In this document: positions 35,862-46,963 of the stretch, in pieces
How positions within the stretch are numbered: position 1 is the stretch's first letter
Layout of the letters: each line of letters opens with the position of its first letter
DNA from: Flavivirga algicola
GTDB lineage: Bacteria; Bacteroidota; Bacteroidia; Flavobacteriales; Flavobacteriaceae
Direction of reading: 5' to 3'
Assembly (NCBI RefSeq): GCF_012910715.1
Contig: NZ_JABBHF010000001.1
Span: 317,170-381,169 of the forward strand
Length of the DNA: 64,000 nucleotides
Notes under the pieces: model-generated
What the model was told of the DNA's origin: nothing
The model's input: only the letters and a program-made list of their open reading frames with translations
The model's database searches: none
Program-made: the position numbers and the translations under genes

Positions 35862-37694
35862 GTGGCTAAAACCCTCATAAATTTTTTATCCGAAATTTCT
35901 TTTTTCTCTGAAGTTTCTCAAGAATCACTTAAACACCTATGTAATCATATTACAGAAGAGACCTATATAAAAAATGAAGTCATCTTCGAGAAAGACACCA
36001 TAGGAAATTCTATGTATGCTGTTTTAAAAGGTTCGGTAAAAGTCCATGACAAAGGCCATATTTACGGTACGTTAAGTATTGGAGACTGTTTTGGCGAATA
36101 TGCCTTAATAGATAATGAAACACGTTCGGCTTCTGTTACAGCTATAGAAAGCACTAAGGTTTTAAAAATTGAAAGGGAGCATTTTTTAGATTTAATCAAA
36201 AAAGACAGTGGTTTTGCACAAGGTATCTTATCGGTTATGATAAAACGGCACCGCGAATTAGATACAATTCAGGAGCGTTTAGCATCATCCAAACAAGAAA
36301 TTGAGATAGCAAACAGTAAAATGAAGGGGCTTATTGATGGTGCTATGGATGCTATTATCATGTTTAGTGACGACTTCAGAATTGTACTCACCAACCCTTC
36401 CGCTAATATCCTATTAGAAAATGACGATACCCTACAACGCAATGTCCTATTCTTCTTTGATGAAGACAGTGCCCATTTAATAGAATCGATTGTTAAAGCA
36501 GAAGACGACAAAAAATCAATAAACAATTACCTGCCAAATATTGTAAAAGTAATCGGGTCGCACAATACCGAAACCTTAAACGAGGGCACTATAAGTAAAT
36601 ATGGTACCGATACAAAAACCTTTTACACGCTTATTCTTAGAAATATTGAAGAACGTCTGGTTGCTGAAGACAAAATAAATTTATTGACAAAGCAAACCCA
36701 ATATTTAGCTGAAGAAATTCAAGAACTTACCAGTAGTTATGGTATCATAGCTGAAGATAAAAGCATGAAAGATGCACTTAACCTTATTCACCAAGTAGCC
36801 AAAACTGATGCTACGGTTTTAATAAACGGTGAAACAGGAACAGGCAAGGAATTAGTTGCCAGAGCCATCCATAAAGAAAGTAATAGGAATGATAAACCTT
36901 TAATTCGTATTAATTGCGGTGCGATCCCAGCAAACCTTATTGAAAGTGAGTTATTCGGGCATGAAAAAGGCGCTTTTACAGGTGCTACCATTAGCAGAAA
37001 AGGGCGTTTTTTATTAGCTGACAAAGGCACTATCTTTTTAGATGAAATAGGTGAAATGCCATTAGAATTACAACCTAAATTATTACGTATTATTCAAGAA
37101 GGTGAATTTGATCCCGTTGGAAGCTCTAAAACTATTAAAGTTGATGTTAGAATTATTGCAGCCACCCATAGAAACCTTTTTGAATTTTCTAAAGCAGGTA
37201 AGTTTAGAGAAGACTTATACTATAGACTGAATGTCTTCCCAATTGAAGTTCCTGCACTTAGAAACAGAGGAAATGATGTTTGTTTGATTGCTAGTGAAAT
37301 GATTACTCAGTTTTCTAAAAAATTAAATAAACCCATTGTTGAATTATCTGAAACCGAAAAAGCATTACTTACTTCTTATAAGTGGCCAGGCAATGTTCGG
37401 GAATTACAAAATTTAATAGAACGCGCGGTGATCGTTTCACAAAATGGTATCATAAATTGGGGAGCTATAATTCCAAACAATACAATTTCAACAGACATAC
37501 CGCAAGCAAGCATCAAAGAAAAAATCTTAACATCAAAGGAACTTGTTGCCTTAGAAAGAGAGAATATTTTAAAAGCGCTCAAACAAACCAAGTGGAAAAT
37601 ATCTGGAATAAATGGTGCCGCTTCTTTATTGCAGCTCCCTCCTACGACTTTAACTTCCAGAATTAAGGCCTTGGGCATAGAACGGCCCATATAA
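35862..37694 (+). CDS. Sigma-54 enhancer-binding protein with cyclic-nucleotide and PAS domains
   Basis: The 610 residues contain a CNBD (about 8-125), a PAS-like domain (about 155-265), an AAA+ sigma-54 activation domain (about 295-530) and a Fis-type helix-turn-helix (about 565-606). The CNBD phosphate cassette FGEYALIDNETRSASV retains the key Glu79 and Arg88, so it should bind cAMP or cGMP. Walker A is GETGTGKE (323-330), sigma-54 contact loop GAFTGA (370-375), Walker B FLDE (Asp394, Glu395). Start is GTG at 35862. A CNBD as the sensor of a sigma-54 activator is rare. Its likely target lies just downstream (inverted repeat and -24/-12 promoter before the OsmC gene). Confidence 0.9.
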   Translation: MAKTLINFLSEISFFSEVSQESLKHLCNHITEETYIKNEVIFEKDTIGNSMYAVLKGSVKVHDKGHIYGTLSIGDCFGEYALIDNETRSASVTAIESTKVLKIEREHFLDLIKKDSGFAQGILSVMIKRHRELDTIQERLASSKQEIEIANSKMKGLIDGAMDAIIMFSDDFRIVLTNPSANILLENDDTLQRNVLFFFDEDSAHLIESIVKAEDDKKSINNYLPNIVKVIGSHNTETLNEGTISKYGTDTKTFYTLILRNIEERLVAEDKINLLTKQTQYLAEEIQELTSSYGIIAEDKSMKDALNLIHQVAKTDATVLINGETGTGKELVARAIHKESNRNDKPLIRINCGAIPANLIESELFGHEKGAFTGATISRKGRFLLADKGTIFLDEIGEMPLELQPKLLRIIQEGEFDPVGSSKTIKVDVRIIAATHRNLFEFSKAGKFREDLYYRLNVFPIEVPALRNRGNDVCLIASEMITQFSKKLNKPIVELSETEKALLTSYKWPGNVRELQNLIERAVIVSQNGIINWGAIIPNNTISTDIPQASIKEKILTSKELVALERENILKALKQTKWKISGINGAASLLQLPPTTLTSRIKALGIERPI

Positions 37695-37698
37695 ATTC

Positions 37699-37748
37699 AC
37701 GAAATCTCATAAAAAGATCAACGATATTTCGTAAATAAACGAAATATC
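37699..37748. promoter_or_regulatory. Putative activator binding site (10-bp perfect inverted repeat plus half-site)
   Basis: GATATTTCGT (37723-37732) and ACGAAATATC (37739-37748) form a perfect inverted repeat around AAATAA. A further half-site, ACGAAATCTC (37699-37708), differs at one base from the right arm. There is no T-run, so it is not a terminator. It lies about 75 bp upstream of the -24/-12 promoter, the range normal for upstream activator sequences, and directly downstream of the activator gene. Confidence 0.65.
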
Positions 37749-37809
37749 ATTACGATTCAGAAAAACCAAAACACACACAACTATCTAATTTTAAGTGTGT
37801 TAAAATATT

Positions 37810-37825
37810 TGGCACGTCGTTAGCT
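37810..37825 (+). promoter_or_regulatory. Sigma-54 (-24/-12) promoter of the OsmC gene
   Basis: TGGCACGTCGTTAGCT matches the sigma-54 consensus TGGCAC-N5-TTGC(A/T) at all but one base, with GG at 37811-37812 and GC at 37823-37824 in exact spacing. Transcription would start near 37836, leaving a 38-nt leader before ATG 37874. No second match of comparable quality was seen when I read the window for TGGCAC. Confidence 0.75.
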
Positions 37826-37873: not shown

Positions 37874-38428
37874 ATGATTACAACAGCGAATGTAAAAAAC
37901 GGAGTAAACGTAGATCAATTAGTGGAAACAATTGGAGCAGTTCAACAAAATCCTGAACTAGCAAAATTCGAATTCAGATCTAAAAATGAATGGATTAATG
38001 GCGGACATTGTGTATCCAATATTAAAGGATTCTATGGCGTAGGACAAGAAGACACATCTCGAGAAGAAACCTTCACTATGGAATGTGACCACCCAAATGT
38101 TTTATTAGGAAACGATTTAGCACCTACACCACCAGAAGTCGTATTACATGCTTTAGGTTCTTGTTTAACTGCCGCCATGACTTATCATGCTGCTGCAAAT
38201 GGTATCGACATCGAAAGCGCATCATCTACTTTAGAAGGCGGATGTGATTTACATGGATTTTTAGGATTAGACCCAGAAGTGCGTATGGGATTTGATGGGA
38301 TTAAATTCAAATTAAATGTAAAGTCTGACGCTTCTGCCGAACAACTAGAGAATTTAGCTAAATTTTCTCCTGTATTTGATATGATTAGCAATCCAACTCC
38401 TGTTTCAATAGAAATTGTAAAGCAGTAG
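37874..38428 (+). CDS. OsmC-family protein, single-cysteine form
   Basis: The 184-residue protein has the OsmC/Ohr fold: ECDHPNVLLGNDLAPTPPEV, then HALGSCLTAAM with conserved Cys97. In OsmC/Ohr peroxidases a second catalytic cysteine follows in CPVS; here the equivalent is KFSPVF, so Ser165 replaces it. That argues against thiol peroxidase activity and for a divergent role in thiol or acyl binding. It sits directly behind a sigma-54 promoter and its activator gene, and 73 bp before the oxidoreductase gene. Confidence 0.88.
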   Translation: MITTANVKNGVNVDQLVETIGAVQQNPELAKFEFRSKNEWINGGHCVSNIKGFYGVGQEDTSREETFTMECDHPNVLLGNDLAPTPPEVVLHALGSCLTAAMTYHAAANGIDIESASSTLEGGCDLHGFLGLDPEVRMGFDGIKFKLNVKSDASAEQLENLAKFSPVFDMISNPTPVSIEIVKQ

Positions 38429-38501: not shown

Positions 38502-41500
38502 ATGAAAACTACAAAGCAAAGCATATTAAACGCCAATCAAGCAGTAGCCTATATAGCCTATAAAACCAATGAGGTTTTCCCTATTTACCCTATTACACCT
38601 GCTTCAGAAATGAGCGAGTTAGTAGAACAATGGTCCTCAGAAGCAAAACAAAACGGTTTTAAGAACATACCATCTATTTTTCAAATGCAAAGTGAAGCTG
38701 GTGTTGCGGGAGCTATGCATGGTGTTTTACAAACAGGTTCGCTATCTACAACCTTTACAGCGTCCCAAGGTTTACTTCTCATGCTACCAAATATGTATAA
38801 AATTGCAGGCGAATTAACGCCTAATGTTATTCATGTTGCTACTAGAAGTATTGCAACACATGCCTTATCTGTTTTTGGAGACCATAGTGATATTATGGCA
38901 GTACGCCAATCTGGATATGCAATGTTAGGTAGTGCCTCTGTACAAGAAGCTCAAGACTTTGCATTAATTGCTCAAGCTGCCACTTTAAAATCCCGTATCC
39001 CCTTTGTTCATTTTTTTGACGGGTTTAGAACCTCGCATGAAATAAACAAAATAGAAACAATTCAAAATGAAACCATCCAATTTATGATGGATTTAAAAGA
39101 TATAGAAAAGCACAGAGATCGTGCTTTAAACCCAAACAACCCCGTTATTAGAGGCACAGCTCAAAATTCAAATGTATTTTTTCAGAGCCGAGAAGCCATC
39201 AATCCTTTCTACGATGCATGTCCAGACATCGTTCAAAAACAAATGGATACCTTTGCTTTATTAACAGGTAGATCCTATAAATTATTTGATTATACAGGTG
39301 ATTTAAATGCAGAACATATTATTATTTCTATGGCTTCTTCAACCGAAACCACTGAAGAAACCATAGTACATTTAAACAAAAAAGGCGAAAAACTCGGACT
39401 TATAAAGGTTAGGCTTTTTAGACCATTCAGTACCAAGCATTTAATTGAAGCCTTACCAAAATCAGTAAAATCAATCGCGGTTTTAGACAGAACCAAAGAA
39501 CCAGGGGCCACTGGCGAACCTTTATATTTAGATGTCGTGCAGTCAATTTCTGAAGCATTTCAAAATAACAAAATAACAGTATTTCCCAAAATAGTTGGAG
39601 GGCGTTATGGGTTAGCTTCAAAAGAGTTTACTCCTGCTATGGTTCAAGCTATTTTCAATAACTTAAAAAAAGAACAACCAAAAAACAACTTCACAGTAGG
39701 CATCAATGATGATGTAAAAAACTTGAGTTTAGATTTTTCCAGCACCATTCAAATTAAAAATGCTTCGTACGAAGCCATTTTTTATCAGGAAAAAAACAAA
39801 AAAGAACTACAAAGCTTCTCCAATACCTTAAGCATTATTGGGAAAAAAAAAGACACTTATGTACAAGGTTATACACAATGTGACTATAAAAAATCCAACT
39901 CATACGATATATCACATTTACGTATAAGTAACACTATTATAAAAGCACCTTACTTAATAGAACAAGCCGATTTTATAGGTTGTCAACATGTAAACCTTAC
40001 ACAAAACGATAACATCATACAGCAATTAAAACCAACAGCTACTCTTTTGGTAAATACATCGCTAAAGTCAAAAGCATTCTGGCAGTCATTATCGGTTAAA
40101 ACACAACAACAAATTATAGAGCAAAATATTAATTTACTTATTGTGGACAATGCCGAATTATCACAATTAAATAGCTTAAAAAATGACTCATTATCAGAAC
40201 TACATGCTTGTTTTTTAGCACTGAAAAAGGATTTGATATATTCTGATACCATTGCAGATCTAAACGATTTTATATATCAGGTCGATACATCAGTAATCAC
40301 TCAAAACGAAAAAACTATTTCTAACTATGATGTTCATTTCAACAATTCTTTATTAGGAAAATTACTTGCCAATAAAGGTCAGAATGCTCCTGTAAGCTTA
40401 CTTCCTTTAGATGGAACGTATCCTAGCAATACATCAAAATTCAACCCAATTCAACAAAGTGAGTTTTTACCAGAGTGGCATGAAGATTTATGCACACAAT
40501 GTGGTGCCTGCAGTATGGCTTGTCCACAAGGAGCTCTTAGGGTAAAGGCATATAATGATACATATTTAGAGAATTCACCTTCGAATTTCAAATCGGTAAA
40601 AGCTACCGAATCCGATTGGAAAGTAGATCTACTAAATTATACGATTCAAATAAATCCTGAGCAATGCAATGGATGTAATAATTGTGTAGACGCTTGTCCT
40701 GAAAAAGCTTTGTCCATGGTTAATAAATCGCTAGTTTTTAAATCTGAAAAAGAAAAATGGAATCATTTTGAAATCATTCCAGAGTTTAACAGAGAAAAAA
40801 TTGATGCTACTAAAGTAAGTCAACAACAACTACAAGAACCCTTATTTAAATACTCAATTGGAGTTGAAGGTTGTGGTGAAGCACCCTATTTAAAACTTAT
40901 ATCGCAATTATTTGGGGATCGGCTTTTAGTTGCCAATGCTACTGGAGCTAGTTCTATTTTTGGCGGTGCCTTGCCAACAACTCCCTGGAGCAAGAATAGG
41001 AAGGGGCTAGGTCCTGCATGGTCTAACTCATTATTTGAAGATAATGCCGAATTTGGTTTAGGGTATCGTTTATCTATAGATCAGCAAGAAAAGCAAGCAA
41101 AAACATTACTTCTAAAACTTGCAGGTCAGTTAGACGCAAATTTGGTTCGTAATATTTTAAATGCAAAACAAGTGACTGAAACAGAAATCAATCAACAACG
41201 ATCCCGTATTGAATTGCTTAAAGAGCAACTTAAAACTATTCCGTCTGCTGAAGCAAAACAACTTTTAAATATAACAGATAGTTTGGTTAAAAAAAGCATT
41301 TGGATTGTAGGCGGCGATGGTTGGGCATACGATATAGGTTATGGTGGATTAGATCATGTAATAGCCTCAGGAAAAAACGTAAACATATTAGTTTTAGACA
41401 ATGAAGTTTATGACAATACTGGTGGACAAGCGTCAAAGGCTACTCCTTTTGGAGCCGAAGCTAAATTTACTTTTAACGGAAAACAAAAACAGAAAAAAGA

Positions 41501-41999
41501 TTTAGGTCTTTTCGCGATGAATTACGACCACGTTTATGTAGCATCGGTAGCTATTGGAGCAAACCAGGAACAAACCTTAAAAGCTTTCAATGAGGCTGAA
41601 AGTTTTGATGGTCCTTCTATAATTATTGCTTATTCACATAGTAGCTCTCATGGTATAGACATGAAGCATCCAAGCAAGTACCACCAAGCAGCTGTGCAAT
41701 CTGGTCAATGGCTGTTGTACAGAAATGACCCACGGCGTGAAACAAAACGACTGAATCCCTTACAACTTGATTCTGAAGTGCCATCTATTCCAATTCAAGA
41801 TTACCTAAAACTAGAAGCACGGTTTTCAAAGCTGTTTCCGAAAGACAACAAACAATACAACTTATTGATAAACAATATACAAAAGGCAGTAAACAAACGA
41901 TTTAACAAGTATTTGAACATGTCTTCCAATTATTATGCTAACAGAACCAAATTGCTACAAGACAATAATATAAAACGACAACTAACTTATAAAAAATGA
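38502..41999 (+). CDS. Pyruvate:ferredoxin oxidoreductase homologue lacking proximal cluster ligands
   Basis: At 1165 residues it has the layout of fused PFOR (NifJ). TPP-binding parts are kept: YPITPASEM (Thr32), QMQSEAG (Glu65), HVATRS (Arg115), GGDGWAYD and LDNEVYDNTGGQ (Asn972). Two ferredoxin motifs are intact: Cys664/667/670/674 and Cys722/725/728/732. But of the four cysteines that hold the [4Fe-4S] cluster beside TPP only Cys791 remains; the others are Val788, Ala816 and Ser1047. The GSDGTVGANK motif near 430 is also lost. Pyruvate decarboxylation may remain, yet electron flow must differ. Named nifJ by homology only; another 2-oxo acid is possible. Confidence 0.9.
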   Translation: MKTTKQSILNANQAVAYIAYKTNEVFPIYPITPASEMSELVEQWSSEAKQNGFKNIPSIFQMQSEAGVAGAMHGVLQTGSLSTTFTASQGLLLMLPNMYKIAGELTPNVIHVATRSIATHALSVFGDHSDIMAVRQSGYAMLGSASVQEAQDFALIAQAATLKSRIPFVHFFDGFRTSHEINKIETIQNETIQFMMDLKDIEKHRDRALNPNNPVIRGTAQNSNVFFQSREAINPFYDACPDIVQKQMDTFALLTGRSYKLFDYTGDLNAEHIIISMASSTETTEETIVHLNKKGEKLGLIKVRLFRPFSTKHLIEALPKSVKSIAVLDRTKEPGATGEPLYLDVVQSISEAFQNNKITVFPKIVGGRYGLASKEFTPAMVQAIFNNLKKEQPKNNFTVGINDDVKNLSLDFSSTIQIKNASYEAIFYQEKNKKELQSFSNTLSIIGKKKDTYVQGYTQCDYKKSNSYDISHLRISNTIIKAPYLIEQADFIGCQHVNLTQNDNIIQQLKPTATLLVNTSLKSKAFWQSLSVKTQQQIIEQNINLLIVDNAELSQLNSLKNDSLSELHACFLALKKDLIYSDTIADLNDFIYQVDTSVITQNEKTISNYDVHFNNSLLGKLLANKGQNAPVSLLPLDGTYPSNTSKFNPIQQSEFLPEWHEDLCTQCGACSMACPQGALRVKAYNDTYLENSPSNFKSVKATESDWKVDLLNYTIQINPEQCNGCNNCVDACPEKALSMVNKSLVFKSEKEKWNHFEIIPEFNREKIDATKVSQQQLQEPLFKYSIGVEGCGEAPYLKLISQLFGDRLLVANATGASSIFGGALPTTPWSKNRKGLGPAWSNSLFEDNAEFGLGYRLSIDQQEKQAKTLLLKLAGQLDANLVRNILNAKQVTETEINQQRSRIELLKEQLKTIPSAEAKQLLNITDSLVKKSIWIVGGDGWAYDIGYGGLDHVIASGKNVNILVLDNEVYDNTGGQASKATPFGAEAKFTFNGKQKQKKDLGLFAMNYDHVYVASVAIGANQEQTLKAFNEAESFDGPSIIIAYSHSSSHGIDMKHPSKYHQAAVQSGQWLLYRNDPRRETKRLNPLQLDSEVPSIPIQDYLKLEARFSKLFPKDNKQYNLLINNIQKAVNKRFNKYLNMSSNYYANRTKLLQDNNIKRQLTYKK

Positions 42000-42046: not shown

Positions 42047-45000
42047 CTATTTTGCCTTCATCTTATTTACCATATCCCAGTGCTTAGGGGTTCCAGAAAT
42101 AGTATACTCGGCAGATTTTGTCACAAAATATTTAGCAACAAGGTCTTCAGGGTTTTTAGTCAACACCGTATCAAAAGCCGCAGATGCTTTAGGGAATTCT
42201 TTATTATAAAAATGGCTTAGCCCTTTTTCAAAATACTTTAATGTCTTAGTTTTTAAATTAATACTCTTCATAGTATCGCCATCAAAGCATTCATAGATAG
42301 CGATCGTATTATCCTTACCTTTTACTTTTACTTTTCCTAAATATCTAAAATTATAATCTTGTTTATTCTTAATCGTATTCAAACTATCCTCACTAACAAT
42401 GATATTGGCGCCGTAATATTTAGTTACTCCTTCCATTCTTGAAGCTGTATTGACAGTATCTGCAATAATGGCCGTATCATTTCTATGAATATCTCCAATA
42501 ATTCCCATGACCAAATCACCTGTATGCAGTCCCATACCCACAGATATTGTTTTGTACCCTTCTTCTACACGTTTAACATTATAAGCTTGTATCGTTTTCT
42601 GCATACCTATAGCTGCTTCTAATGCCTGGTTTGCTTGCTGCGGAAACAAAGCCATAATACCATCACCTAGATATTGATTCACAAACCCTTTTTTACTTTG
42701 AATAATGGGCCCCATTCTCCCCACATAAGCATTTACAAACTTAAAATTTTGTTCTGGCGTCATTGATTCAGATAGATTTGTATAATCTCTAATATCTGTA
42801 AATAAAACAGTTACTTTTTTCTGAGTATGATCTCCTAAAACCACATCTGTTATAGCTTCTCTTCCTACAGATTTTAAGAATTCGGATGGTACAAATCGAC
42901 TTGTAGCTTTGTGAATACCATTAAGATTTAAATGTGTTTTTATTCTACTTAACAATTCATTTTTAGAAAACGGTTTGGTTAAATAATCGTTTGCCCCGAC
43001 ATTAAACCCTGTGACTAAATCGTTTACCCTATTTTTAGCGGTTAATAATACCACTGGTAATTCGCTTGTTAAATATTGCTCCCTGATTTTTTCACAAACT
43101 TCATAGCCAGACATATTTGGCATCATAATATCTAAAAGAACCAAATCAAAAATGAACTCATCAATAAGCTTTAAGGCTTCTTTTCCATTACTGGCTTCTA
43201 CAACATCATATCCAGCCATAGTTAAATGATTTTCCAAAACCCTTCTATTAACAACCATATCATCAACCACAAGAATACGAATATGGGCATTATTTATTTT
43301 AGGTACCGTCTCTTGAATAACACCACTAGAATCATCAATTTTTTGAACGCTTTGAGACAATTCTCCCTTTATGGCTTTATTAAACTCTTTTCTATCTTGT
43401 TTACTTATTGGTAGAGTAAATGTAAATTTTGACCCTTTTTTAACTTCTGATTTTACGGTTATGGTACCACCATGTAATTCAACCAATTGTTTGGTTACAG
43501 AAAGTCCTAACCCAGTACCTCCATATGATCTAACCGTAGAACCATCTGCCTGTTCAAATGATTTAAAAATAGCTTCAAACTTTTCTTCTGGGATGCCAAG
43601 ACCGGTATCTGAAATTGAAATTGATAGCATTCCATCATGCTCCTGTGCTCCTATCTCAACTTTACCAGATTCTGTAAACTTAATCGCATTCCCTATAAGG
43701 TTATATAGAATCTGTTCTAATCTATTTTCGTCGGCCTCAACCAGTGGAATATCTTTAGGTATTGAATTAATTAGGCGTAAATCTTTACCTTTTACTAAAA
43801 ATTCTGAAACTTTTAATACCAAATCTACTGCTGAATGCAAATCAATTGGTTGAAGAGAAAGTGCTAAGTCTTTATTTTTTAATTTAGAAAAGTCGAGGAT
43901 ATCGTTGACCAAATTGGATAAGCGTTTCCCGCTATTTACAATCATATCTAAGTTATCTATAGCTTTAGGCGATAATTGTCCCGCAACACCATCTTTAAGG
44001 GATTCGGACAAACCTATAATCCCATTTAATGGCGTTCGTAATTCGTGTGATGTATTAGCAAGAAATTCATCTTTAAGTTTATCTATTTTTTGAAGTTCTT
44101 TAACACGTTCTTTCTCTCCCTCTGCTTCTGCTATTAACTGCCTCTTTTCTAATTCTTCTTGTTTTAAACGTTGCTTATATTTAAATCTCTTGAAAAATAT
44201 AAAAGACATTAAGATAAGCCCAACCATTAAGCCTATAACAATATTTCTAAAGGTAGTTTGGCGTTTTAGCTTTAAATCTTTAATCTCCGAATCTTTTTCT
44301 AAAGCACTAATAACATTTTGTTTTTTTTCGGCATCAAACTTAGCTTGAAGCTCCTCTATCTGTCTAGATTTGTTTTTATTATATAAACTATCTTTTACAG
44401 TAATAAGTTTCGAATTAAACTCAAAAGCTTTTTTATAATCACCTTTCTCTCTATACAATTCGGAAAGTATGGTATAATTATCTTTTGACTTTTCTTTATC
44501 TCCAATTGCTTCTGAGATAGCCAATGATTTAATCGCAAACTCCTCGGCAAGATTATAGTTTTTGAGCTTGAAATAATTTTTTGCTATTTCAAAATAACTC
44601 ATTGACAATTCCCGCTTTTGATTGAGTTGACTCCTTAAATCAAGTGCTTTTTGATGATAGTTTAAAGCTATTTTATAATGCTGCTGTAAACTCGAAACTT
44701 TGCCAAGTGATTCATAATCATAGGCCATGCCCCATTTACTATTCAACTCAGTATCTAATTTTAAGGCATTATTAAAATAAATTAGTGCCTTATCATAATC
44801 TTTAAGAAGTATATATGTATCTCCAATATTATAATAACAATTGGCCATTTCAGTTTTATCCTCCAATTTCTCAAAAATCACCAATGCCTTATTATAATGC
44901 TCTAATGCAAGATCTATTTTTCCCGATTTCTTTAAAACCTCTCCAATAGCATTAAGTGTCGTTGCTTCTCCAAAAACATCTTTGATTTCTTCGTAAATTT

Positions 45001-45451
45001 TTAAAATATCATAGTAGATCTTAAGGCTTTCTTCAAACGAACCTTTATCATCAAGGATGATCGCTTTTTGATATAAGCCATTGGCAATCTCCTTCTTGTC
45101 CTTATTTCCCTCAGAAAATTCAATATACTCTTCAAAATAGTCAAGTGCCTTATCGTAATTGCCTCTTTGACGTTCAAGAACACCATATTGATATTTAGCT
45201 AATACCTCCCAACTTTTTAATCCAGACTTTACACTTATATTATAAAGACTATCTATATACAATTCGGCCATAGTATTGTTAGACCTATTATTAAGATATT
45301 CCCAGGAAATATTTTTTATTACTTGAGCTTTGGAAGAATCTGTTACAGCCTTTTTCAACTCAAGCTGTAAACTATCTAATGTAGCAGTTTGGCAAAAAGA
45401 AATTGAGTAATAGAAAGTCGTTAAAAATAATATACAAATCTTGTATTTCAT
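42047..45451 (-). CDS. TPR sensor histidine kinase-receiver-nucleotide cyclase hybrid
   Basis: This 1134-residue protein has a signal peptide (1-20), about seven TPR units (about 85-350), a coiled coil, one helix (403-420), then HisKA (His469 in NTSHELRTPLNG), HATPase (580-685), receiver (Asp730/731, phospho-Asp774, Lys826) and a class III cyclase (about 875-1045). The cyclase keeps metal aspartates Asp886 and Asp930 and catalytic Asn1001/Arg1005. The two base-selecting residues are atypical: Gln926 where Lys is usual, Ala994 where Thr/Asp is usual. A short TPR-like tail follows. It is convergent with the oxidoreductase and probably signals by phosphorylation and a cyclic nucleotide. Confidence 0.9.
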   Translation of the reverse strand: MKYKICILFLTTFYYSISFCQTATLDSLQLELKKAVTDSSKAQVIKNISWEYLNNRSNNTMAELYIDSLYNISVKSGLKSWEVLAKYQYGVLERQRGNYDKALDYFEEYIEFSEGNKDKKEIANGLYQKAIILDDKGSFEESLKIYYDILKIYEEIKDVFGEATTLNAIGEVLKKSGKIDLALEHYNKALVIFEKLEDKTEMANCYYNIGDTYILLKDYDKALIYFNNALKLDTELNSKWGMAYDYESLGKVSSLQQHYKIALNYHQKALDLRSQLNQKRELSMSYFEIAKNYFKLKNYNLAEEFAIKSLAISEAIGDKEKSKDNYTILSELYREKGDYKKAFEFNSKLITVKDSLYNKNKSRQIEELQAKFDAEKKQNVISALEKDSEIKDLKLKRQTTFRNIVIGLMVGLILMSFIFFKRFKYKQRLKQEELEKRQLIAEAEGEKERVKELQKIDKLKDEFLANTSHELRTPLNGIIGLSESLKDGVAGQLSPKAIDNLDMIVNSGKRLSNLVNDILDFSKLKNKDLALSLQPIDLHSAVDLVLKVSEFLVKGKDLRLINSIPKDIPLVEADENRLEQILYNLIGNAIKFTESGKVEIGAQEHDGMLSISISDTGLGIPEEKFEAIFKSFEQADGSTVRSYGGTGLGLSVTKQLVELHGGTITVKSEVKKGSKFTFTLPISKQDRKEFNKAIKGELSQSVQKIDDSSGVIQETVPKINNAHIRILVVDDMVVNRRVLENHLTMAGYDVVEASNGKEALKLIDEFIFDLVLLDIMMPNMSGYEVCEKIREQYLTSELPVVLLTAKNRVNDLVTGFNVGANDYLTKPFSKNELLSRIKTHLNLNGIHKATSRFVPSEFLKSVGREAITDVVLGDHTQKKVTVLFTDIRDYTNLSESMTPEQNFKFVNAYVGRMGPIIQSKKGFVNQYLGDGIMALFPQQANQALEAAIGMQKTIQAYNVKRVEEGYKTISVGMGLHTGDLVMGIIGDIHRNDTAIIADTVNTASRMEGVTKYYGANIIVSEDSLNTIKNKQDYNFRYLGKVKVKGKDNTIAIYECFDGDTMKSINLKTKTLKYFEKGLSHFYNKEFPKASAAFDTVLTKNPEDLVAKYFVTKSAEYTISGTPKHWDMVNKMKAK

Positions 45452-45649: not shown

Positions 45650-46108
45650 TCATCTTTTCATGCCTTTCTTCATTTGCTTGTAATGCTCCTCAAACCACTC
45701 GGGTTGTTCAATTTCATTGTCAAACATATAGTCTGCAATCTGTTCTATATCTTCTTCACTATAAGGTAATTTTTGCATGACTCCAAATCGCCTAACCGCT
45801 CCAAACATTTTTGCATCTTTCTCATTTGGGTTTTTAATCCACTTTTGTATATCGTTTATAAACACTTCTTTTGATGTATCTTCAAATATATAGCGTTTTT
45901 TAATAGCTATCATTGGGGGTGCCAGCCTCTCTTCTTCAGTTTTAGTAGCGTCATGGCATAAATAACAATGTGTTTCCATAAGCTTTTTTCCCGGATGCTC
46001 TTGTAGTACCTTGTTATAAGATTCGGATAGGGTTTTGTTATTTTCATCTTTTGTTTTTTTACAGCCCATAACCATAAAAAATACTATGAAAAAGGCCAAT
46101 ACTTTCAT
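45650..46108 (-). CDS. Monohaem cytochrome c-like lipoprotein
   Basis: The 152-residue product has lipobox FMVMGC (Cys16) and one haem-binding motif CYLCH (Cys48, Cys51, His52). APPM at residues 63-66 and a second methionine-rich stretch could give the axial Met; the family is small c-type cytochromes on the cell surface or in the periplasm. It lies 15 bp downstream of the universal stress gene, so the two form an operon, and the palindrome upstream of that gene would control both. The partner oxidoreductase is unknown. Confidence 0.8.
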   Translation of the reverse strand: MKVLAFFIVFFMVMGCKKTKDENNKTLSESYNKVLQEHPGKKLMETHCYLCHDATKTEEERLAPPMIAIKKRYIFEDTSKEVFINDIQKWIKNPNEKDAKMFGAVRRFGVMQKLPYSEEDIEQIADYMFDNEIEQPEWFEEHYKQMKKGMKR

Positions 46109-46123
46109 TTTACATAAGTTTAA

Positions 46124-46963
46124 TTAATTATTTTTCATTACCAGAAAAGGGATATCAATGCTAAACGCAAAAGTTTCGACTAAGTGTCGGTTAAATAAGC
46201 GCTCTAAAAAAGAATGTTTTTCTCCAACCATACACAGCATTTCTACATGATTCCTAACAATATACTTATGTACAACATCGTACATATCCTTTGTTTTTAT
46301 ATCGATATAATCATGTATGGAATTCACAAATTGCGAGCTAAAAAAATCTATGTTTTCATTTTGTTTCTGCACTAAATGATTTTCGTCTGCAATATGCAAA
46401 ACATGCAATACAGAGTCATTTAATGCTACTAAATCCACAAGAGGTTTTAGGCGTTCCTCATTAAATTCAGTAGCATTGTTAGTAATAAATGCTATTTTAT
46501 TCAAGTTGGAAAAGACACAATTATCAGGAATAGCAAGCACTGGCACTTTACAACGTTGTATAACTCGAACCGTGTTGCTGCCAAAGATTACCTTTTGCAA
46601 TCCAGAAGCCCCTTTAGTCCCCATTACTATTAAATCAACTTGATTTTTTTCGGCAACCTGATCGATAGAATCTATAAAATTATCATAATCAACCATGAAA
46701 TGAAAATGATGCTTATCATTTTTATAGTGTTCCTTCACTTTAGAAACAATATTTGACAACGACTTTTTTGCCGCATCAATTATTGTGTTGTAAATAGTTG
46801 TTGACGATCCAACAACCATCATATCATCAGAAATAAATGATGATGCTTTCTGGACATTAAGTAAATAAAAATCGCATTCAACATCTTTAAGCAATGTTAA
46901 TGCAAAATGAATAGAATTCATGGAATTTTTAGAAAAGTCGGTAGGTAACAATATCGTTTTCAT
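46124..46963 (-). CDS. Universal stress protein, tandem UspA domains
   Basis: A 279-residue protein with two UspA-like halves. The N-terminal half has the ATP-binding pattern G-x2-G-x9-GS as MGTKGASG and IFGSNT (Gly115, Gly118, Gly128, Ser129). The C-terminal half (about 150-279) ends in CMVGEKHSFLERLF and is degenerate at that site. Tandem Usp proteins are often induced under low oxygen or starvation. A Crp/Fnr-like palindrome lies 55 bp upstream of the start (47018-47031). The downstream gene encodes a cytochrome. Confidence 0.9.
   Translation of the reverse strand: MKTILLPTDFSKNSMNSIHFALTLLKDVECDFYLLNVQKASSFISDDMMVVGSSTTIYNTIIDAAKKSLSNIVSKVKEHYKNDKHHFHFMVDYDNFIDSIDQVAEKNQVDLIVMGTKGASGLQKVIFGSNTVRVIQRCKVPVLAIPDNCVFSNLNKIAFITNNATEFNEERLKPLVDLVALNDSVLHVLHIADENHLVQKQNENIDFFSSQFVNSIHDYIDIKTKDMYDVVHKYIVRNHVEMLCMVGEKHSFLERLFNRHLVETFAFSIDIPFLVMKNN

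Follow-up and report, generated by a model that had tools for sequence, protein, structure and literature searches.

What function remains to a pyruvate:ferredoxin oxidoreductase (PFOR) that has lost the residues holding one of its iron–sulfur clusters? PFOR is a well-studied enzyme of thiamine pyrophosphate (TPP) and iron–sulfur clusters, and its electron chain via cluster A is treated as fixed. The question is raised by an open reading frame of Flavivirga algicola, which lies in a stretch of 64,000 nt (assembly GCF_012910715.1, contig NZ_JABBHF010000001.1, positions 317,170 to 381,169 of the forward strand), referred to herein as the window and used for all window coordinates. We call this gene pfor*, a working name for the cluster A-less, PFOR-derived frame. 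The evidence assembled below makes it almost certain that pfor* and its relatives form a real, conserved and distinct subfamily, and supports the view that cluster A would be unable to form with its known ligands in the encoded protein.

The PFOR ancestry of the product is apparent. Almost all of it can be aligned by phmmer, as two long segments, with the PFORs of M. thermoacetica and D. africanus, and it scores 1387 bits against the PFOR profile TIGR02176, for which the curated cut-off is 911. A search of its own genome returned no second PFOR, the other match being short, 31 % identical and located in the ferredoxin region. Using D. africanus numbering, the ligands of cluster A are Cys812, Cys815, Cys840 and Cys1071. 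The equivalent residues of pfor* are Val788, Cys791, Ala816 and Ser1047, such that a single ligand of the four is kept and the canonical motifs FSGACxGCGETPY, ATGCSS and AYSHC become YSIGVEGCGEAPY, ATGASS and AYSHS. The original prediction of just these three losses is therefore confirmed by alignment to PFORs. Its wider interpretation is supported in part, with the decarboxylation of pyruvate, and a PFOR one cluster short with a new acceptor, being possibilities only.

The same pattern recurs amongst relatives. Within an alignment of 164 rows (the window plus 163 others, derived from reading frames of at least 900 amino acids in fetched loci, with near-copies removed), 133 harbour cysteine at all four positions and five read CCC-, with the remaining 26 (25 distinct, as the window appears twice) having lost all three residues wherever these can be read. 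No row intermediate between zero and three losses is found amongst the 164 at readable positions. For the full variant set, which comprises 37 rows, 36 of them distinct and the window included (L240 being the same as L060), no cysteine occurs at position 788 or 816 in any distinct member, and serine occupies position 1047 in all 34 that can be read there, two rows being unreadable at this site. The replacements are thus conserved in relatives, and sequencing error or chance can be dismissed, since all 36 distinct variants share the three losses. Cys791 is present in 35 of the 36, with the exception of L084 (8001-11237), in which all four cysteines are gone and are replaced by Met, Ser, Thr and Ser. 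Close to the lost sites, Lys783, Tyr784, Ala794, Phe820 and Ala823 are largely fixed. The possibility that the ligands have merely been displaced was also considered. A cysteine two residues ahead of Ser1047 is common (27 of 37 rows); it cannot be a general replacement ligand, however, because the window protein has Ser1045. A second candidate, Cys460 (83 %), is new and lies within the drifting domain III.

The second feature to have changed is domain III itself. As predicted, the GSDGTVGANK region near residue 430 is replaced both in the window and in relatives: GSDGTV is found in none of the 37 variant rows versus 76 of 133 canonical rows (in the remaining canonical rows it is, at the least, the precise letters that differ), and neither the window protein nor the variant rows displayed have any GxDGTVGANK-type loop. 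Mean identity per domain, calculated for 21 variants among themselves and for 30 sampled canonical rows among themselves, is 0.40 versus 0.61 for domain III, indicating relaxation. It is quite probable that coenzyme A (CoA), which in PFOR binds at domain III, is not used by this enzyme in the PFOR manner.

Much of the remaining protein is preserved. Thr32, Glu65 and Arg115 are found in pfor* and in all variant rows, and Asp939 and Asn972 in every row readable at these sites, pfor* itself having Asn972; the TPP and pyruvate residues of PFOR are those of the Thr31, Glu64, Arg114 and Asn996 type. Eight ferredoxin-domain cysteines (664, 667, 670, 674, 722, 725, 728 and 732) are likewise present in pfor* and in every variant row. 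Amongst the variants, mean identity reaches 0.74 and 0.73 in domains I and VI, respectively, compared with the 0.40 of domain III, and conservation of the ferredoxin domain is on a par with that seen in canonical PFORs (0.57 vs 0.56). As judged from these alignments, therefore, the catalytic TPP domains I, II and VI are retained together with the cysteines of the two-cluster ferredoxin domain, in keeping with the predicted persistence of the TPP residues and of both ferredoxin-type motifs. One consistent change does occur, at the position of canonical Thr967, where all 36 variant rows that can be read have Asn, the residue usual for the general TPP motif.

With regard to distribution, 50 of 199 Flavobacteriaceae genomes contain a PFOR match, comprising 23 with the variant (one of which, G066, is counted from a fragment lying where a contig begins) and 27 with canonical PFOR only, a class assigned by identity with some of the sequences read. 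Two genomes, G154 and G194, carry both forms. In G957, a genome from the same genus as the window, a canonical PFOR takes the place of the variant. Amongst the best matches read from those listed for 395 genomes of the phylum (with the weak-match families f8, f11 and f12 set aside) and 395 of the order, the variants all belong to the Flavobacteriaceae. The 80 loci listed by a related-locus search include three variants, with the other 77 matching at 44–51 %. A tree built from 74 rows by a quick method unites 23 variants in one group with a support of 100 (Shimodaira–Hasegawa-like approximate likelihood ratio test). The branch dividing them from the canonical rows is long, at 0.91, and the canonical PFORs of the same family fall outside the group. 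Comparison with a relative from the same genus yields a nonsynonymous distance (dN) of 0.098 and a synonymous distance (dS) of 0.864, and hence a dN/dS of about 0.11, which is indicative of purifying selection.

The relatives share not only a protein but also a partner. An osmC-like gene precedes pfor* as a conserved pair, adjoining it in 24/24 loci, and when the set is extended to 36 loci it is found in 35 (L195 begins inside pfor*), with pfor* in 34 of those 35. At an identity of at least 68 %, this osmC is present in 22 of the 199 family genomes, all of which have pfor*, and in none of the 176 genomes without the variant; the variant genome lacking a counted copy is G066, the fragment mentioned above. 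Four further family genomes harbour only weaker relatives. The product scores 50 bits for the OsmC domain PF02566 (cut-off 27.5) and resembles 2opl over nearly its full length (Table 1), an entry from Geobacter sulfurreducens that is named ‘Hypothetical protein’, with no function stated. The partner family differs in possessing invariant cysteines of its own, in GGHC and GSC/SSC motifs (24/24). A pair of peroxidatic and resolving cysteines is the hallmark of OsmC/Ohr thiol peroxidases; here the first is retained in 24/24, with the CPV position being SPV in 24/24, whilst a solved OsmC-domain protein to which there is a weak match (9wo1) has the CPV cysteine. In all likelihood the pfor* enzyme works with this OsmC; that OsmC is its direct acceptor is doubtful.

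Table 1. Features of the pfor* locus, in window coordinates
Feature	Position	Strand	Basis
pfor*, PFOR-derived TPP enzyme without cluster A	38502..41999	+	1165 aa, ATG start, frame uninterrupted
Val788, replacing cluster A ligand Cys812	40863..40865	+	alignment
Cys791, sole retained cluster A ligand (Cys815 equivalent)	40872..40874	+	alignment
Ala816, replacing cluster A ligand Cys840	40947..40949	+	alignment
Ser1047, replacing cluster A ligand Cys1071	41640..41642	+	alignment
Replaced GSDGTVGANK loop, domain III (residues 431-440)	39792..39821	+	alignment
Intramolecular ferredoxin domain V, eight cysteines retained (residues 656-755)	40467..40766	+	alignment
osmC-like gene	37874..38428	+	184 aa; PF02566; 2opl_A E=2.5e-40; beside pfor* in 24/24 loci
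Predicted sigma-54 -24/-12 promoter TTGGCACGTCGTTAGC	37809..37824	+	only match to pattern in 64-kb window
Putative activator box 1 ACGAAATCTCAT	37699..37710	+	box pattern
Putative activator box 2 ACGATATTTCGT	37721..37732	+	box pattern
Putative activator box 3 ACGAAATATCAT	37739..37750	+	box pattern
Sigma-54 activator: cNMP_binding, Sigma54_activat AAA and Fis-type helix-turn-helix domains	35862..37694	+	PF00027, PF00158, PF25601 above cut-off; PF02954 below
TPR, histidine kinase, receiver and class III nucleotide cyclase hybrid	42047..45451	-	Pfam; convergent with pfor*

The pair appears to be controlled by a common switch. Three palindromes resembling ACGAWWWWTCGT, set at near-fixed steps of 22 and 18 bp, are found in 24 of 26 upstream regions (L151 has none and L194 two), and the 75 box matches compare with a mean of 4.6 and a maximum of 10 in 200 shuffles preserving base content only. 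All but one of the 26 regions have a TGGCAC/T element between −59 and −73 relative to osmC, 21 of these 25 with a downstream GC, and a gene for a sigma-54 activator with a cyclic nucleotide-binding domain lies near osmC in 22/24 loci (L154 begins at a contig end and L151 has none) and in 32/36 of the enlarged set. Promoter motif, upstream boxes and adjacent AAA activator are hence all present, as would be predicted for a sigma-54-dependent operon. The pattern of boxes 2 and 3, allowing up to two mismatches, occurs at one place in the genome of the window, where the backward control also gives one match. When combined with the promoter, the pattern matches in 26 of 397 family genomes, as opposed to three control matches in two genomes. 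Ten of these combined matches fall in genomes new to the analysis, nine of them before osmC and the tenth (G916) within the frame of an unrelated gene run, which is taken as chance. Further box matches are seen at G129 C12 and G173 C10, and in G011 C25 an activator gene followed by boxes is situated close to where the contig ends, next to a frame resembling a transposase. The hybrid cyclase downstream of pfor* could possibly supply the cyclic nucleotide signal; a tblastn match to it, or to a second TPR-cyclase type, exists somewhere within 32/36 loci, and this second type is situated near osmC in many other genomes.

The wider surroundings likewise depart from those of canonical PFORs. KorA is found above cut-off in 0/21 genomes with the variant only, 20/22 with canonical PFOR only (22 of the 27 such genomes identified among the 199) and 2/2 with both; the corresponding counts for RnfC are 1/21, 13/22 and 0/2. 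At 12 canonical Flavobacteriaceae PFOR loci, KorB-type and KorA-type genes are each seen nearby at eight, a ferredoxin at seven and an Rnf subunit at five, with an osmC of the partner type at none; the neighbour families were checked in one such locus, L141. Sulfur and thiol genes are found in the vicinity of some copies of the variant and at two other sites that bear the boxes. In G169 (L208, 5000-5929), boxes and a sigma-54 motif precede a TauE/SafE sulfite exporter gene, with DsrE and rhodanese genes nearby. In G148 (L207, 403-4822), boxes and promoter lie before genes for a methyltransferase, an AhpC/TSA protein, a weakly DsbD_N-like protein, a homocysteine S-methyltransferase, a DsrE protein and a class V aminotransferase. 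A SoxA/TsdA-type cytochrome c, a protein with a twin-arginine translocation (Tat) signal and a DsrE protein are encoded close by in 8/36 loci, and a LysR regulator, which we take to be OxyR-like, in 8/36 (one a weak match), accompanied in four by a ferritin-like gene, presumably Dps. In the window, a small cytochrome c gene near the pair (45650-46108, minus strand) has a weak likeness to SoxX (E=0.0005), and a universal stress protein (Usp) is encoded at 46124-46963 (minus strand); a Usp gene lies no more than 9 kb from osmC in 9/36 loci.

How, then, should pfor* be classified? Relative to NifJ-type PFOR (TIGR02176; 1b0p, 6cin), it keeps only Cys791 of the cluster A ligands and has no GSDGTVGANK loop, and differs further in its relaxed domain III, its gene neighbours and its promoter. 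As two features that define a working PFOR are absent, pfor* is not filed as one despite its PFOR scaffold. All 18 variants scanned nonetheless match TIGR02176 at an E-value of 1e-271 or better, estimated to lie at about the cut-off, and this label may assign them the wrong metabolism. A partial parallel is offered by StOFOR of Sulfolobus, a two-subunit 2-oxoacid:ferredoxin oxidoreductase with fewer clusters than PFOR (PMC5020499); that enzyme keeps the proximal cluster and is missing the ferredoxin domain, the opposite of pfor*. Amongst the open-licence papers listed by literature searches, no report of a cluster A-less PFOR or of an osmC–PFOR pair was recognised, and PMC6307301 and PMC9478572 have no bearing on the question. 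The original prediction did not extend to the arrangement of an osmC–pfor* pair with a predicted sigma-54 promoter and three boxes, an adjacent activator with a putative cyclic nucleotide-binding domain and, usually, a nucleotide cyclase, nor to the relaxation of domain III, the lack of KorA and RnfC from nearly all variant genomes or the sulfur and thiol genes near some copies. The promoter signature thus linked to osmC can be used to search genomes. The protein itself amounts to an experiment performed and conserved by nature: the ligands of cluster A have gone together with the loop of domain III, the remainder is kept, and nearly all of the genomes concerned are devoid of KorA and RnfC. 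The role of cluster A in TPP radical chemistry thereby becomes testable using a native protein.

The retained parts would suit the addition of a 2-oxo acid to TPP and its decarboxylation. With the relay for TPP-radical electrons lost along with the loop of the CoA domain, the simplest reading is CoA-free chemistry, its product or electrons passing elsewhere and OsmC being the natural candidate to receive them. A change of job is suggested by the drift of domain III, by osmC as a partner, by predicted control through sigma-54 and a cyclic nucleotide, by genomes all but devoid of KorA and RnfC, and by sulfur and thiol genes near some copies. The preferred reading, at about even odds, is that pfor* encodes a repurposed, CoA-independent TPP enzyme acting on 2-oxo acids within an OsmC module for thiol or sulfur stress. 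Under this proposal, osmC and pfor* would form one operon, switched on by a cyclic nucleotide signal when the cell meets stress of the thiol, sulfur or peroxide kind. The enzyme would then use TPP, without CoA, to decarboxylate pyruvate or a comparable 2-oxo acid, and acyl or electron equivalents would bypass cluster A, passing either to an OsmC thiol or directly from TPP to the medial cluster, which is the weakest step. Given such a bypass, acetate or an acyl/thiol adduct would be expected to form, and not acetyl-CoA and reduced ferredoxin. The fully specified form of this scheme, a CoA-free, ferredoxin-independent 2-oxoacid decarboxylase of Flavobacteriaceae that hands acyl groups or electrons to a dedicated OsmC in a sulfur or thiol stress response switched by cyclic nucleotide and sigma-54, is unlikely to be correct.

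Several observations weigh against a repurposed enzyme of this kind. The substrate is suggested by the retained residues only, and the assignment of CoA binding to domain III follows the title of entry 6ciq as opposed to measured contacts. L084, in lacking Cys791, argues that there is no universal catalytic thiol at this position, and the serine at the CPV position of OsmC makes a classical thiol peroxidase role doubtful. Nor is osmC strictly dependent on pfor*, as in G1081 (L231, 3200-6165) the activator, boxes and osmC lead into genes for a SoxA/TsdA-type cytochrome c, a Tat-signal protein and a DsrE protein, pfor* being missing and the sole PFOR match of this genome being canonical and located elsewhere. 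The sulfur link draws on eight loci together with two extra box sites, of which the one in G169 does not conform to the combined pattern, and the box pattern read backwards gives four control matches in 23 genomes. Finally, the eight invariant iron–sulfur cysteines suggest that electrons may still pass, which fits at least equally well with a rival explanation.

That rival holds that the enzyme is still a PFOR or pyruvate oxidase, from which only the relay cluster has been dropped, with TPP-radical electrons tunnelling to the medial cluster, acetyl-CoA or acetate as the product and some other molecule as the electron carrier. A ferredoxin domain conserved to the canonical level would be odd if no electrons passed through it, and the retention of Thr32, Glu65, Arg115 and, where readable, Asn972 agrees with this proposal. 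Conversely, the domain III loop is lost and the domain drifting, KorA and RnfC are nearly absent from variant genomes, and the distance to be tunnelled is long, being some 20 Å or more between TPP and the medial cluster in PFOR; a surviving PFOR is thus unlikely, though not greatly so. It is unlikely that pfor* encodes a non-oxidative TPP decarboxylase or carboligase, converting pyruvate to acetaldehyde or an acyloin with its two clusters serving a structural role only, for which the purely structural flavin adenine dinucleotide of acetohydroxyacid synthase provides a precedent. Such an enzyme would account for the joint loss of the oxidative exit, cluster A, and of the domain III loop, for the TPP domains being the best retained, and for Asn in place of Thr967. 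Set against this is the strict conservation of all eight cysteines despite large divergence: as these never vary, an idle ferredoxin domain is disfavoured. A third proposal, that another cofactor or a mononuclear metal occupies the empty cluster A pocket and performs the same relay job, held by Cys791 and its neighbours, finds favour in the near-universal Cys791, in the largely fixed residues nearby in sequence and in the frequent Cys1045; with Ser at 791 in L084 and at 1045 in the window, it is improbable. Decay, in which an inactive PFOR is simply carried along with osmC, gains some support from the much diverged copy in G154, which coexists there with a canonical form, yet is barely credible given a dN/dS of about 0.11, TPP and iron–sulfur residues invariant wherever readable in 36 distinct relatives, a retained promoter and the recurrence of the losses in all 36, so that the view of the original prediction, that so consistent a loss argues against decay, is upheld.

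The copy in G154 (L162/L170) is the most diverged of the variants, with a frame of 1037 amino acids and a tree branch of 2.21; it adjoins osmC and is perhaps on its way out. Two frames of around 1650 amino acids, in L246 (G1063) and G034 C2, show a weak match to the N-terminal part of PFOR or to the KorA model.

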